DNA from: an uncultured bacterium
GTDB taxonomy: Bacteria; Bacteroidota; Bacteroidia; CAILMK01
Reading direction: 5' to 3'
Assembly (NCBI GenBank): GCA_903829945.1
Contig: CAIKRV010000096.1
Coordinates: forward strand, 1 to 33,774
Length of the DNA: 33,774 bases
Part shown: positions 3,301 to 9,307 of the stretch, piece by piece
Position numbering within the stretch: the first letter of the stretch is position 1
How the letters are laid out: every line of letters starts with the position of its first letter
The notes under the pieces: generated by a model
Databases searched by the model: none
Seen by the model: the letters and a program-made list of their open reading frames with translations, nothing else
Told to the model about the DNA's origin: nothing
Position numbers and translations under genes: made by a program

Positions 3301-3656
3301 TCCAGCAATTCGGTAGCATCATCAAATTTTCCATCATTATTAAAATCGATCCATATCCCGTAAGCAAAAGACCTGATTTTGGTTGGCCCTAAGTCATACC
3401 CTCCTTCATATTGATATGTTTTTCCTGCTTTGAGAGTTGTTACACTCCCAAAAGACAAAAAAGCAGTATCATAGCAATCGCTCAAAAATCCTGGGGCAGA
3501 ATAGTCGTTGAATATAAAGCCATCAATACCCAAAAGCCCGCAAGTCCCTGTACTTACAGGTTTACAATAGGTCTGGGATTTTAAAGGTTGTGAAAAACAA
3601 AAGACACTTAATACTATAAGGAGGACGATCTGTTTGGTAGCGGAAAATATATTCAT
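348..3656 (-). CDS. Large secreted GEVED/PKD protein with T9SS sorting domain
   Basis: This 1102-aa secreted protein is probably cell-surface or extracellular. It has a signal peptide (about 1-28, ending near S-Q-T-Y). A GEVED domain follows (about 75-190), recognisable from G-I-W-I-D-F-N-N-D-G-K-F and the later R-M-R-L-R segment. Next come a CARDB-like beta domain (about 195-300), a jelly-roll/MAM-like region opening Y-Y-E-N-F-E-S-G (about 305-490), a second CARDB-like domain and an Ig-like domain. Two PKD repeats with W-R-F-G-D-G and W-S-F-G-D-S lie at about 860-1005. The last 85 residues are a type A T9SS sorting domain (V-V-P-N-P, ending G-L-Y-F-L-T-L). GEVED and PKD domains usually act as binding or spacer modules, and no catalytic domain is visible. 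Substrate and role are unknown. It follows the split T9SS gene on the same strand but is separated from it by a strong terminator, so it probably has its own promoter. Confidence 0.9.
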   Translation of the reverse strand: MNIFSATKQIVLLIVLSVFCFSQPLKSQTYCKPVSTGTCGLLGIDGFIFNDYSAPGFLSDCYDTAFLSFGSVTTLKAGKTYQYEGGYDLGPTKIRSFAYGIWIDFNNDGKFDDATELLDSNTINFAVSYAWKGNLKIPLGVLSGQYRMRLRIVDDSYLKTFKKKNYLKKNGACNSHELSGVCDFYVKIDRAWPIDLSVANIWPSSSCSLDSSESVRVKISNSGYDTLQKGKTVIVGYTLNGKQIENDTFQLLRMLIPGDTFFHTFNSTANMALKGGYTFKAFIKNSLDSNITNDTLASIRYNKKYISTPYYENFESGIPDTWTNDPNDAGFDWSVFTAFYRYPTYYFFDHTYPKTAQGHCPYVSFANSGGLLPPNKFDSINLITPCFDISSATYPVADFWMINSPYYVPYWKTIDSNSVLYVDVYCNGKWYYNIDTPLYNIGSYSSWANVKIDLRPYKGITAIKFRANTNSKTGAATSIFFDDFRIYDWKIKDVGITGVLSPKTNAYGDSNTQIAVAMKNFGRVSQTNIPFEVKIVGKKSGVVALLKDTLRSILLPDEIDTFNIIPTFNSFSGDQYFITAYTTLSGDSVPQNDSTKDTVIIHAGLPQPIVSNSGLCSPGTLKLFVTNNTNYSTFWYDSLHSRLPLFIGDTFVTPFLSNSRKYFAVFTNVNSYNLGPANDSVVTKNPVKDTVTNTCTNCSWGQAINATDTFDLDSVTIYPAHSGKITFHYGLIPPDYIPDLIPPVTVNVVQNGKPYSRVRIPVGMRIPKGKNAKIYPTTTTGGLTYNDDSSQYPYASPPVTIFANVTIPLYGGFYSITYSYYWYLYNWRIRSYGGYSKKTPVWAEIDSPGLAKFGYKENCYGQVQFTDSSIYKSGRLPKYNWRFGDGNIDSTINPVHSYLSSGSYNASLKLIFYGGCKDSFGKSITTFKGMDTTWSLQSKAGRELSYKGNDSTLKYQWSFGDSNTSSNRTGTHTYAVDGSYHVKLEILSANGCAIIRDSQISISITSSNLTSSNSNQYNLNVVPNPYCNQTQISYSLPSASKTDLILKDMTGKVVAVLQNHELREGLQQVILSAKMFGIKPGLYFLTLMVNNTPFTIKVVQIQ

Positions 3657-3684: not shown

Positions 3685-3717
3685 AAGTCTTCCGGCGTTT
3701 TTACTGCCGGAAGACTT
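3685..3717 (-). terminator. Intrinsic terminator after the split T9SS gene
   Basis: A perfect 12-bp stem (AAGTCTTCCGGC, 3685-3696, with GCCGGAAGACTT, 3706-3717) encloses a 9-nt loop. Read on the minus strand it starts 12 nt after the stop of the 3730 gene and is followed by TTCT. The tail is short, but the stem is strong and well placed. Confidence 0.8.
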
Positions 3718-3729
3718 AATTTTTATGAA

Positions 3730-6700
3730 TTATTGTTTTTCAAATTTAATATGATATACAGAACCATCTTCTCCCACGATCTCAACCATGTATAATCCTT
3801 TTGAGAATTTGTCAGTAGTAATAATATGTTCCCCAGCATTAACATTAGTTATTTTTAAAATGTTCCTGCCTGCAAGATAATAAATATTTATATTTGTTCT
3901 TGTAAATTTCGGCGCATCAGGCAAATTTAAGGTAATATTACCCTCTGATGGATTAGGATATAGTTTTGGGATTGCTTTATCCGATTTATCGTCTTCAATG
4001 CCGGACCTTTTTAACATTGAGGCTGTTGTTCGGCAGGTAGTTAGCCAAGTATTGACCGGAACAGTTAAAGTTGAAGCGGAAGATGTATACGATGAATAAT
4101 TAATATTTACCGGAAAGCCTGATGTTGAAGGCACAACGGTAGGACTATTAACAATATAGGTCATTGTGCCAGCAAATAAGATGTCCGTAGTATTTGAGGC
4201 AAAGTAATTGGAAGCATCATCTCCACAACCACCACCAAGACAAGTTGATCCCTGGGTATTAGTTGTTCCTGATCCTGTTATGCCAATTGAATTACCTGTA
4301 AATTTATTGCAATACACTTCTACATCGAGTACATCAGTAAAGTAGGATGGATTATTAATTCCATTCGCAATGTATCCTGAGCTGGTAGGGGTAATTGGAT
4401 ACACTCGAGGAGCCATGACAATCCCATAAATATTTCCCTGGAATTTATTGTGTTGGATTCTCGATGTTGGATAAATGCCACCCGCTTCTTGGAGAAAAAC
4501 AATACCATTTATGAGACCAGAAAAAATATTTTCGTCGGAATTGTTTGTAGTTCCTACAAATGTTCCGCTATTCCTTGCCTGGATACCTGTATTTAGCAAC
4601 GTTCCTGAAAAATTATTCTTTTCCATTGTCACTCCGGATTGATCTATGTTTATTCCTTGAGTGTATACACCTGTAAATGTATTACTGGAAACATCGGCTT
4701 GGCTATTATATATTTCTATACCACTTCTTTGACAATTCGGCCCAACAGGATTTGATCCCGTGAATGTCGAATTTTGAATATCCGGGGAAGAAGGAGTCCC
4801 TGCCATAGTCACATTGTACATAAGGATACCTTTACTTTCATCAGGATTTATCACAGAATATGGGATGGTTGCGGAAGTACCGGGAGGATATGTTCCACTC
4901 ATCAGGGAATTTGTAGTATTAAATGTACACGCGTTTATATTTCCCGGAAGGGAATAATTGTTGTAATCAACATAGGCTACGTGCACAAAATTATTTGTGA
5001 ATGTTACGTTATTAAGTATAAGTTCACCTCCCTGGTAGGATAGAGCCCCAATCATCGCATCATTTATAGCTCCTCCAGACATTATTAACGAACCTTGTCC
5101 GGAACTATATCCAGGTGCCAAACTGGGATCACCATCTACGGTAATTCCTTGCCACTCGCCACAACTGGTGAATGAAACATTAGTCAGGTTTAATTGCTTC
5201 CCTTTCGCAACGGTGATCTTTACATTATTCCCAACGACAATATTTATTGGTGGACCGGAGCCCCATGTAGTATTTGTAGAAATGGTCATAGAACTTGAAA
5301 TATAATAGCCGGAAGCACCACCAAAAGGGTAAGAAGAAATAGGAACATAACCAACAGGAGTGCAGTTAGCGGTTGTTATATCAGAGACTTTTATTATATT
5401 GGAAGTATATGTCCCTCCACAGGAGGAAACTCCAGTAGCATAATAATATCCTTCACTGGTTGGTGTATAAGTAGATCCTGAAGCAATAGAACCGCTTGTC
5501 CCTACTTTATACCATAAAATTGAACTATAATAACTGGTTATTGTAGGAAGTAGCTTTAAAACAGATGAACCAACATTAAATAATCCGTCCATTATTCTCA
5601 GATCCGGTGTTTGTTGAAAATTAAATCCATCTGAGACTATGTAGCAGGTTGTATTACATGTTCCGCCGGGATAAAAATAAACTCTATAAATACCGGTCAT
5701 CATGTTAGAAGAAGAATAGTAATTTGAAGTGGCTCCCGGAATTGCAATATCTCCGCTTCCATAATTAACATACCACTGGTAAGATGGTACATAGCAAGGA
5801 GGGGCTGGAGGAGGAGCTACTAATGTAGGCGCAGGATAAGCCGATGGTAAGGTAAAGGTTGCAGTAGTTCCCGGGCATGCAATGGATGTACCGCTAATTG
5901 ACAATGGAGTAGTAGGAGATCCCAAACAATCGCCAAAGAAGGCTACATATCCATCCCAATCACCGCCATTAGTTGTTTGAAATGTGGAATTAGAGGTAAA
6001 TTGGGAAGAAGAGGTTGAGTTAGTTTCGCCGACAAAAGCGATATTACCAGTAGACTTATTGTCAGTAATTGCATATCCATAGGATGAAGAGCCGTAATAG
6101 GTTCCATACTGTTGTCCACCGGTATTGTTAAACTTGCAATAAACTGCGCTGCCTGAACATGTGCCACACCCTGTTGATGTGAAAGCTGATTGAAATGCGC
6201 CTGAAGAAACCGGGAAGCCGCTACCATAGCTCTCGCCGGCAACATTGCAGTCTCCATTTTTATCTGTAGTACACGAATTAAATTCATCCTGGTAACTACC
6301 CCCAACATAGGTACTCCATGATCTTCCTCCGGAAGTTGTAAATCTTGAGACAAATCCATCTCCCGATCCTCCATACGTCGGCTGAAATACTCCTCCGCTC
6401 GATGCAATGCCGGTTGCACTAAAGGTAGAACCTACCATATATATACAACTGTTTACACTATTGTAACTTACACCGTTGGCTTCATCATCTCCGGTGCTAC
6501 CGAAATATGTACCCCATGTCTTAGCGCCGGCACTTGTAAGCTTATATAAAAAAGCATCATAAGTTCCTCCTCCGTAAGTTGTTTTATATGTTCCGGCAGT
6601 TGCAATATTTGATGTACTACTTGTGTAGCCGGCAACATAGGCAATTCCTGTTGGATCTACTGATATACTCGTTGCTTGATCATCCCCGGGAGCACTAAAT

Positions 6701-6831
6701 GTTTTTACCCATTTATTTGCGCCCGTCTCATCAAATTTTGCAACCATAACGTCATTCAAACCTCCAAGGTTATAATATCCACACGCATAAACGTATGTGT
6801 GAACCAATGTATTGTCATAATAACAGGACAA
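3730..6831 (-). CDS. C-terminal part of nonsense-split SBBP/beta-helix T9SS protein
   Basis: This 1033-residue segment is in the same frame as the 6841-8316 gene, and the two are separated only by one TAA and three codons. It opens in the middle of an SBBP-type beta-propeller repeat. Further repeats follow, with D-D-Q/E-A, V-A-G-Y-T-S and D-A-F-L-Y-K-L patterns (to about residue 300). Then come an Ig-like region with a proline-rich stretch (about 310-480), a right-handed parallel beta-helix region rich in N-N-x-F and T-F-T-G strands (about 520-900), and a type A T9SS sorting domain (L-Y-P-N-P-S-E-G near 958, final G-L-Y-M-V-E-I). The only upstream start is a TTG (6831), and no signal peptide is present. 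Made alone, this half could not be exported although it carries the export tag. I read it as the distal half of one broken gene of about 1530 residues. Independent translation from the TTG is unlikely. Confidence 0.8.
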   Translation of the reverse strand: MSCYYDNTLVHTYVYACGYYNLGGLNDVMVAKFDETGANKWVKTFSAPGDDQATSISVDPTGIAYVAGYTSSTSNIATAGTYKTTYGGGTYDAFLYKLTSAGAKTWGTYFGSTGDDEANGVSYNSVNSCIYMVGSTFSATGIASSGGVFQPTYGGSGDGFVSRFTTSGGRSWSTYVGGSYQDEFNSCTTDKNGDCNVAGESYGSGFPVSSGAFQSAFTSTGCGTCSGSAVYCKFNNTGGQQYGTYYGSSSYGYAITDNKSTGNIAFVGETNSTSSSQFTSNSTFQTTNGGDWDGYVAFFGDCLGSPTTPLSISGTSIACPGTTATFTLPSAYPAPTLVAPPPAPPCYVPSYQWYVNYGSGDIAIPGATSNYYSSSNMMTGIYRVYFYPGGTCNTTCYIVSDGFNFQQTPDLRIMDGLFNVGSSVLKLLPTITSYYSSILWYKVGTSGSIASGSTYTPTSEGYYYATGVSSCGGTYTSNIIKVSDITTANCTPVGYVPISSYPFGGASGYYISSSMTISTNTTWGSGPPINIVVGNNVKITVAKGKQLNLTNVSFTSCGEWQGITVDGDPSLAPGYSSGQGSLIMSGGAINDAMIGALSYQGGELILNNVTFTNNFVHVAYVDYNNYSLPGNINACTFNTTNSLMSGTYPPGTSATIPYSVINPDESKGILMYNVTMAGTPSSPDIQNSTFTGSNPVGPNCQRSGIEIYNSQADVSSNTFTGVYTQGINIDQSGVTMEKNNFSGTLLNTGIQARNSGTFVGTTNNSDENIFSGLINGIVFLQEAGGIYPTSRIQHNKFQGNIYGIVMAPRVYPITPTSSGYIANGINNPSYFTDVLDVEVYCNKFTGNSIGITGSGTTNTQGSTCLGGGCGDDASNYFASNTTDILFAGTMTYIVNSPTVVPSTSGFPVNINYSSYTSSASTLTVPVNTWLTTCRTTASMLKRSGIEDDKSDKAIPKLYPNPSEGNITLNLPDAPKFTRTNINIYYLAGRNILKITNVNAGEHIITTDKFSKGLYMVEIVGEDGSVYHIKFEKQ

Positions 6832-6840
6832 ACCCGTTAA

Positions 6841-8316
6841 TTATTCATCGTCGTTAGCGCAGGAGACGCTATTTTCTACATATGTTAACCAATTAAATCC
6901 TGTTGCTGGGGTCAATGTCGAACTCGCATCGATTTGTGCCAAAAACCAATCATGTTCACCTAAAGTATGAGAAGGAGGACATGAATTGCCCACTAATGAA
7001 CACCAACATCTTTTGGTAATGAAGGCCCCTGTAGTAGTAGCCATATCAGTACTGGTAGTACTCCCCCCTGCATATAAATGGTGAGTAGTACCACTAATAT
7101 CCAAACATAATGATTTAACGCTTTCAGCTCCAACTCCTGAAAACCAGACAATCCAATCCATATCATTCAACCCATTCTTTACATCATCAAATCTGATGAC
7201 AAAACCGTCTAAGTCAGCAACATAATTGTCATAAATCAAAGCGGCGGGGCTTCCTGCCTTACAAGCATTGGCAGCAACTGTGCAATTTGTTGGCAGGCTT
7301 GTGCTCAAAGTACCCCCTCCTGCAAAAATAATATCCTTACCGGTTGCGTTATTATCATCCAATAGTACCGCATATAAATCATCATGATCATTACCGCCAT
7401 AGAATGTAGCCCATGCCCGTGTAGGGTCTATAATCAGGGTTTCATTTTTATCGTAATTGTTAACTACAAAATTCACAGTATTACCTGTTGCTTTGAAGTT
7501 GCAATTTACCTGTTTTGAGGCATCTTTTTGATAGGCAAATGGGGAGGATTCAACCAATGAACCTAATCTGTTTTTCATACTGAGGCTTCCATCGCTCAAA
7601 AGATTTATATCATCTTGCCCGTTGAATACCATTTTAATTTGATTCGGATTACCGCCGGGATGTATGATAAAATCATATTTTACCTGACCATTGTCCAAAT
7701 GATATACCTTCATGTCTATGAAAGGATATACGTTGGAGAATGTGATTTTTTCATAGCCTTTGCTTATAATGTCATTTTTACCATAGTAATAGGTAGTATG
7801 ACTTTCTCCATCTTTTGAGGCAATAGCGTTAGGATTTGCGCCTTCCAAATCCATGCTAATACCGGCATAATGACCGCGAGGCTTTTCAAGAAGCTTTGCT
7901 TTCTCATTTTTAGTATTGCTCTCAATAGTTGTCCAGAAGTATGTAATAAAATCAGCTCCGAAATAATATTTAACACCATTATATGCGCCATAGAATTTGA
8001 CATCATTTGCAGGTGTTCCATTGTTAAAAGTCAACTGACCTTTGTTTTCAATAAAAAAATTACTTTGGGCTTTCTTTAATGCGGTCTGAATACCTGACTT
8101 TTGATTATTGTCCGGCTCAACGGAGGATTTAACCTTTGTGGGGTCAGCTTTGATTAAACTTTGTGCAGTTTGCGCATATGTATATGCGTTAATGAAGCAT
8201 AAAACGAATACAAATAATTTGCATACGTTTGGTTTTTTTAGCAAATGAATGCCGAGAATGTTGCCATTAAATTGCGAGTAATCGCGGTTTTTTTGAACGA
8301 AATGATTGTTTCTCAT
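6841..8316 (-). CDS. N-terminal part of nonsense-split DUF7948/SBBP T9SS protein
   Basis: This is the N-terminal half of a giant secreted protein. I chose the ATG at 8316, which puts a signal-peptide-like segment near residues 25-49 (L-F-V-F-V-L-C-F-I-N-A-Y-T-Y-A-Q). A TTG at 8376 would lie inside the predicted -7 promoter box. The segment F-F-I-E-N-K-G-Q-L and the following beta-rich region match the N-terminal domain (DUF7948) common in Bacteroidota SBBP proteins. SBBP repeats follow, with the phrases W-A-T-F-Y-G-G and L-Y-A-G-G-S-T-T. The frame ends at a TAA (6843..6841) just after C-A-N-D-D-E, in the middle of a repeat. The next intact repeat downstream reads D-D-E-A-N-G-V-S at the same place. 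The product lacks a T9SS sorting domain, so it would be exported to the periplasm but not surface-sorted. See the finding on the in-frame stop. Confidence 0.85.
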   Translation of the reverse strand: MRNNHFVQKNRDYSQFNGNILGIHLLKKPNVCKLFVFVLCFINAYTYAQTAQSLIKADPTKVKSSVEPDNNQKSGIQTALKKAQSNFFIENKGQLTFNNGTPANDVKFYGAYNGVKYYFGADFITYFWTTIESNTKNEKAKLLEKPRGHYAGISMDLEGANPNAIASKDGESHTTYYYGKNDIISKGYEKITFSNVYPFIDMKVYHLDNGQVKYDFIIHPGGNPNQIKMVFNGQDDINLLSDGSLSMKNRLGSLVESSPFAYQKDASKQVNCNFKATGNTVNFVVNNYDKNETLIIDPTRAWATFYGGNDHDDLYAVLLDDNNATGKDIIFAGGGTLSTSLPTNCTVAANACKAGSPAALIYDNYVADLDGFVIRFDDVKNGLNDMDWIVWFSGVGAESVKSLCLDISGTTHHLYAGGSTTSTDMATTTGAFITKRCWCSLVGNSCPPSHTLGEHDWFLAQIDASSTLTPATGFNWLTYVENSVSCANDDE

Positions 8317-8373: not shown

Positions 8374-8403
8374 CAAATATAGCGTTTTTTGACAATAACC
8401 AAA
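8374..8403 (-). promoter_or_regulatory. Promoter of the split SBBP gene
   Basis: On the minus strand TTTG (8403..8400), an 18-nt spacer and TATATTTG (8381..8374) match the Bacteroidota sigma-70 consensus TTG-N19-TAnnTTTG, one base short in spacing. The transcript would start near 8367, about 50 nt before the ATG at 8316. This supports the ATG over the TTG at 8376. Confidence 0.65.
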
Positions 8404-8573: not shown

Positions 8574-8673
8574 GGAGTTATTTAACTCTATATTCGTACC
8601 GACTTTAAGATTGTTACCGAACAAATGGGCGTTCGGTATAAGGGCTGCCTGTCTTGGCAGCCCTTTTTCTTTT
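8574..8673 (+). ncRNA. Candidate small RNA with three hairpins
   Basis: A promoter-like sequence (8539-8567) is followed by three consecutive hairpins. They are GAGTT/AACTC (8575-8588), TACCGAAC/GTTCGGTA around loop AAATGGGC (8615-8638), and a strong intrinsic terminator (8641-8664 plus T-tract). No plus-strand reading frame longer than about nine codons lies between the divergent gene at 8316 and this terminator, so it has no evident protein gene to serve. The simplest reading is an independent transcript of about 100 nt. It does not show the SRP, 6S, tmRNA or RNase P signatures I know. It could instead be the remains of a lost gene. Confidence 0.35.
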
Positions 8674-8674
8674 T
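8641..8674 (+). terminator. Strong intrinsic terminator with no obvious gene
   Basis: A perfect 9-bp stem (AGGGCTGCC, 8641-8649, with GGCAGCCCT, 8656-8664) has a 6-nt loop and is followed by TTTTCTTTTT. The T-tract is only on the plus-strand side, so it ends plus-strand transcripts. Confidence 0.8.
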
Positions 8675-9307
8675 ACTAACTTACTGTTTTGAGTTTTTTT
8701 GCTAAATCTTGTCCGTATTTCTCAAAAGAGCAAACTTTATTGGATAAAACACTAGCCCCAAATCTATTATTCCCAACTATTTTTAACTATCCGCAACTAT
8801 TTTCAACTCCCCAGCATCTTATTTTTAACTTTGTACTTTAATAGGAACACTTACTATATTATATAGTGCGTTTTACTGGTAAAATTTGATTGACAACAGC
8901 AAAATATCGAATATATTTTTCGTCGGCAAATAAAAGGTTTTAGTCTAATTATTGACGTCATAAGAAGTCAAATGCGATGAGTAATCGTTAGAAGATTTGA
9001 AATTGTCAGCCTAGCGGTGATTCTATAAAATACAATCTTATGAGAAACCAATGTACAAAATCAGGCGGTTTTTAACCGCAATAATCCGCAGGATTATTTT
9101 GAAATTTATCTAAATAAATAAGATTCTTATCCTACATATTTACAAATAAAAAGCAAGTTAAATATTATTTTTATAATTTGAAGTGTTTTTATTAACTTGC
9201 GGTCATCCGCCACGACAGAGCCTGATTATATACACAATGCCTGTCCCGATGCTACTGGAGCTTCCCTTGGGAAGAGGTGGTGCAAGAGATTTATAAAAAA
9301 TATTAAA
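8674..9307. other. Gene-free stretch with phased repeats and palindromes
   Basis: I see no convincing gene here. Four AACT motifs spaced exactly 10 bp (8775, 8785, 8795, 8805) precede an exact -7 box TAACTTTG (8826-8833). The palindrome ACTATATTATATAGT follows shortly downstream. Two adjoining tight hairpins lie at 9065-9079 (GCGGTT/AACCGC) and 9080-9098 (AATAATCC/GGATTATT). Inverted arms GCAAGTTAA (9153-9161) and TTAACTTGC (9192-9200) come next, then the palindrome CTTCCCTTGGGAAG (9261-9274). The segment from about 9197 to 9307 has no stop in the frame of the next gene, but its palindromes make it look non-coding. Confidence 0.6.
8774..8833 (+). promoter_or_regulatory. Phased AACT repeats upstream of a -7 box
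   Basis: AACTAT occurs at 8775, 8785 and 8795, and AACTCC at 8805, so the motif recurs once per helical turn. Equivalently, two 15-bp direct repeats (8774-8788 and 8794-8808) differ at one base. The array covers the place where a -33 element would lie relative to TAACTTTG (8826-8833), and no TTG is present there. This arrangement suits an activator-dependent promoter. The transcript's target is unclear; the next gene starts about 470 bp downstream. Confidence 0.4.

Follow-up and report, generated by a model that had tools for sequence, protein, structure and literature searches.

A large T9SS cargo gene divided by an in-frame stop codon in an uncultured member of the Bacteroidota: most likely a recent disruption or an assembly error

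The closest described relatives of the gene analysed here are proteins of the Bacteroidota that combine a DUF7948 domain (PF25778), SBBP repeats (PF06739) and a type A sorting domain of the type IX secretion system (T9SS; PF18962/TIGR04183), the same domains being present here in the same order. A T9SS sorting tail requires prior export by the Sec system. Surface proteins of bacteria may be lost through sporadic nonsense or frameshift mutations, which leave pseudogenes or null alleles, or they may be switched, as in invertons, in which DNA flips between inverted repeats of 10–40 nt to give phase variation (review, PMC11892184). Nothing was found in the literature on SBBP proteins in connection with T9SS, on intragenic invertons with premature stops, or on T9SS phase variation involving homopolymers.

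The locus lies on the minus strand of a 33,774-nucleotide stretch of DNA, the whole of which is referred to as the window. A frame opening at ATG 8316 runs for 491 codons to a TAA (6843–6841), continues in the same frame for a further 1,036 codons, and ends at a second TAA (3732–3730). The residues around the internal stop read ...S C A N D D E * L T G L S C Y Y..., the stop being followed by TTA ACG GGT (6840–6832) and by a TTG at 6831. Over the second-half stretch the two alternative frames contain 57 and 85 stops, and the openness of its 1,036 codons is therefore not a matter of chance; the GC and GC3 values of both halves are those of the ordinary genes of the window. From the N to the C terminus, the gene specifies a signal peptide (called by eye from the translation), the DUF7948 domain, an SBBP propeller of about seven blades, a long repeat-rich region and the type A sorting tail (Table 1). 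The first half has no sorting tail, and the second shows matches to SBBP (PF06739) and to Por_Secre_tail/TIGR04183. The TAA separates the signal for export from the tail for sorting, no single polypeptide carries both, and the gene as written is not a functional cargo gene. The sequence-only reading had described two segments sharing a frame with a TAA between them, and its coordinates, frame and stop all proved to be as described. The domain search and the translation also agree with its placing of the signal peptide in the first half only and of the sorting domain in the second only and, as neither half carries both, with its statement that neither can complete T9SS export alone.

Table 1. 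Features of the divided gene and of its flanks (positions in the window)
Feature	Position	Strand	Remarks
First half	6841..8316	(-)	ATG 8316 to TAA, 491 codons; signal peptide and DUF7948
Signal peptide of first half	about 8173-8244	(-)	N terminus MRNN...LLKKPNVCKLFVFVLCFINAYTYAQ
Alternative start of first half	TTG 8244	(-)	Possible
DUF7948 domain (PF25778), first half	7420..8055	(-)	E 1.3e-49
SBBP beta-propeller repeats	5959..7422	(-)	About seven blades, stop within span; homologue-built repeat profile, SBBP in Pfam
Blade 3	6766..6954	(-)	Divergent, holds the stop; repeat profile
Premature in-frame TAA	6841..6843	(-)	Sole internal stop among the matches listed in the order
15-nt perfect inverted repeat, arm over stop	6837..6851	(-)	Other arm 4089-4103 (+), same gene, 2.7 kb apart
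Second half	3730..6840	(-)	1,036 codons, open and in frame with the first half, then final TAA; without signal peptide
T9SS type A C-terminal sorting domain, second half	3754..3963	(-)	PF18962 and TIGR04183 above cut-off
Promoter match, Bacteroidota type, TTTG-N18-TATATTTG	8374..8403	(-)	Pattern scan; 58-87 bases upstream of ATG 8316
Terminator hairpin	3685..3717	(-)	13-bp stem, after second half

The flanking signals also treat the two frames as a unit. The pattern TTTG-N18-TATATTTG, which we take to be the Bacteroidota −33/−7 promoter type, matches the minus strand of the 33.8 kb window at three places, one of them ahead of the first half; none was found between the halves in the window scan. 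A promoter match before the first half, a terminator after the second and no promoter match between them point to one gene, and taken with the layout support the view that the two frames are the severed parts of one T9SS cargo gene. In annotation they should be joined as a single disrupted gene, the second half as written not being an exported protein.

Two further elements were seen on the far side of the promoter match. Positions 8590–8674 of the plus strand hold a candidate multi-copy small RNA gene (fold z = −4.4; no Rfam family) consisting of a promoter-like TAxxTTTG, a conserved GACTTTAAGATTGT leader, a hairpin with a AAATGGGCG loop, and then a terminator hairpin. Five copies were found in the same genome (that of the window plus L048, L051, L165 and L166), and the other genome of the genus has two (L046 and L049), with some paired changes in the stems among copies. 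A 47-base intergenic segment (9052–9098) has copies 83–96% identical at three other sites in the genome, and more in G001.

The blades delimited by the homologue-built profile span residues 299–354, 369–436, ∼455–516, 518–583, 578–651, 646–717 and 721–786 of the joined frame, and the stop, at residue 492, falls inside blade 3, the most divergent of them. The sequence-only reading had proposed that the stop replaces one residue of a repeat without any gap. This now appears insecure: in DDE-AN-GVS, the repeat which that reading itself used for comparison, two residues separate E from G, as against three positions here (stop, L, T), and the shorter spacing is shared by blades 2, 4, 5 and 6. The local AATAAT would fit a small duplication; however, the idea that the TAA is an added codon, drawn from this motif and from the sibling spacing, is weakened by a blade of a paralogue on contig C31, SDDE-CGT-AL, which fits the stop region gap-free. 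As loop length is naturally variable, a substitution and an extra codon cannot be told apart. Folding of 716 residues across the stop, predicted without an alignment, gave no usable model (mean pLDDT 31.7).

When either half was used as a query against 60 related genomes, no internal stop was seen in homologues among the matches listed. The same was true, apart from the window itself, of a search with the stop region in all 12 genomes of the order that were examined. The homologous frames among the matches listed are typically of 800–2,300 codons, and remain open where the premature stop sits; the best are ∼30–48% identical, which makes them distant homologues rather than orthologues. No close orthologue was found in the genus (in which one other genome, 78% complete, was examined), in the family, or in a wider contig collection scanned twice. 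The comparison with homologues that had been proposed earlier thus gave undivided matches, none of those listed ending and restarting at this site, with the proviso that all are distant.

Other genes of this genome were also found to be broken. It contains six DUF7948 genes, of which that in the window is the shortest (523 codons between stops, as against 883–1,353 in the others). Four of the other five are single long frames; the fifth, a DUF7948/T9SS gene on contig C31 (L072), changes frame exactly at a G8 tract (GGGGGGGG, 3556–3563), passing from a frame of 883 codons to one of 1,022 codons which bears the sorting tail. Such tracts are rare, with three in the 2.9 Mb genome, and the frame change may reflect either slippage switching or a homopolymer error. 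Sixty genes with T9SS tails were extracted, and two of the 57 that could be judged were split by frameshifts away from long homopolymers (on contigs C67 and C78). In these the part with the signal peptide is separated from the part with the sorting tail at about 905–945 of L121 (C67) and about 907–960 of L083 (C78). Another 391 kb of the genome was screened by frame geometry, a method bound to miss some breaks, and one clear break was revealed: a TonB-dependent receptor gene with an in-frame TGA in its plug region, on the minus strand of L155 (C40:1-20000; reverse-complement offset 17600). Beyond this genome, an in-frame TGA interrupts a PKD/T9SS gene in a genome of the same family (G003), and a DUF7948 gene is split by frame in one of the same class (G053). 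Such breaks, which differ in type and position, are thus sporadic events in large surface-protein genes. Their clustering in T9SS genes could nevertheless hint at something besides random decay.

The reading we favour, to which we assign a probability of roughly 0.64, is that a single T9SS cargo gene was inactivated when an in-frame stop arose in blade 3, sporadically and in the recent past, leaving a null allele or young pseudogene with no special decoding. For each unit of neutral divergence, about 146 changes that create a stop would be expected in the second half. As none was found, the loss would date back less than ∼2% in neutral divergence; the stop is either recent or an error. Going by established T9SS biology, translation would end after 491 residues, and Sec would export the first product to the periplasm as a fragment whose propeller is incomplete and which, having no tail, the type IX translocon would not take. 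What follows the stop would go untranslated, or might be weakly made from an internal start and kept in the cytoplasm.

The main rival to a recent lesion is that the stop arose in base calling or in the draft consensus, the true chromosome having an intact single gene. That the assembly is a draft of 97 contigs, that another of its broken genes sits at a G8 homopolymer, and that the remainder of the frame is untouched would all fit this explanation, homopolymers being a classical site of sequencing errors. The stop, however, is not in a homopolymer, the genome is 99.99% complete with 0.79% contamination, and the single clear break per 391 kb screened suggests an error rate that is not high; an artefact is thus unlikely, though to be taken seriously. 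Much less probable is stop-codon read-through yielding a small share of full-length protein: the intact frame after the stop and its preserved codon bias would suit it, but a recent lesion also explains the intact frame. TAA is the usual terminator, nothing like a known signal for read-through or recoding was seen, and the Rfam search of the window returned a tRNA only. Nor does any listed relative have a stop at this place, so that the pattern of a conserved stop with an open extension, by which programmed read-through is recognised, is absent. Just as improbable is a natural arrangement of two genes whose products are made separately and then assembled. Both halves are indeed long open frames, and an internal TTG lies 9 bases past the stop, yet the second half has a sorting tail without the signal peptide that such a tail presupposes, no promoter match precedes it, the break lies within a blade of the propeller, and relatives are undivided.

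A switchable surface protein would be a further possibility, the stop representing one state of a phase-variable gene and coming or going through slippage, through inversion, or through template switching between 15-nt inverted repeats. One arm of a perfect repeat of this kind overlaps the stop and the other lies in the same gene. The two form the only exact inverted repeat pair of 15 nt in the window, neither 15-mer has an exact copy elsewhere in the genome, and the C31 paralogue shifts frame at its G8 tract. Against this, there is no slippage tract at the stop, just AATAAT, and such pairs do arise by chance, seven being present in 391 kb and 2% of shuffled genes having one. Inversion between the repeats does not seem able to act as the switch for this stop, since the stop itself is inside an arm and would be kept when the segment flips. 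The overlap, though curious, is probably a coincidence, and a switch at this stop is very unlikely. The broader proposal that several T9SS surface proteins of this bacterium can be turned on and off, through the G8 tract in one DUF7948 gene and through the stop and frameshifts elsewhere, the split halves being off alleles of a varying population rather than dead genes, seems only marginally less doubtful; the occurrence in one genome of several broken T9SS genes, including one that breaks at a rare G8 tract, would be important if their states were found by read data to vary within the population. From the causes listed in the sequence-only reading, a recent nonsense mutation thus emerges as the best supported and a base-call error comes second. 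Phase variation at this site (no slippage tract, and a repeat whose flip cannot remove the stop), read-through (no stop there in listed relatives, no recoding signal) and a two-part gene (a signal peptide in the first half only, no promoter match ahead of the second, undivided relatives) found no support. The feature is real and ordinary in kind, most likely a T9SS gene disrupted not long ago or else an error of the assembly.

Among known systems, sequence comparison led to one relative of solved structure, CylK, a beta-propeller alkylating enzyme (PDB 7fh8, 7ron), which resembles the repeat region in blades 4–6 (E 3e-14). The likeness is confined to the repeats; the domain context differs, and the sequence gives no sign of CylK catalysis. 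The locus recalls invertons in its pair of inverted repeats, here of 15 nt and within the gene; it differs in that a flip would retain the stop. The DUF7948/SBBP/T9SS proteins match the stop-spanning frame over both halves but are undivided, whereas here the stop splits blade 3. When set beside the pseudogenes and null alleles that sporadic nonsense or frameshift mutations leave in bacterial surface proteins, the present, putative case differs in being known from a draft consensus; it resembles them in its single lesion within an otherwise intact frame, and in a lesion site that is not common to its relatives.
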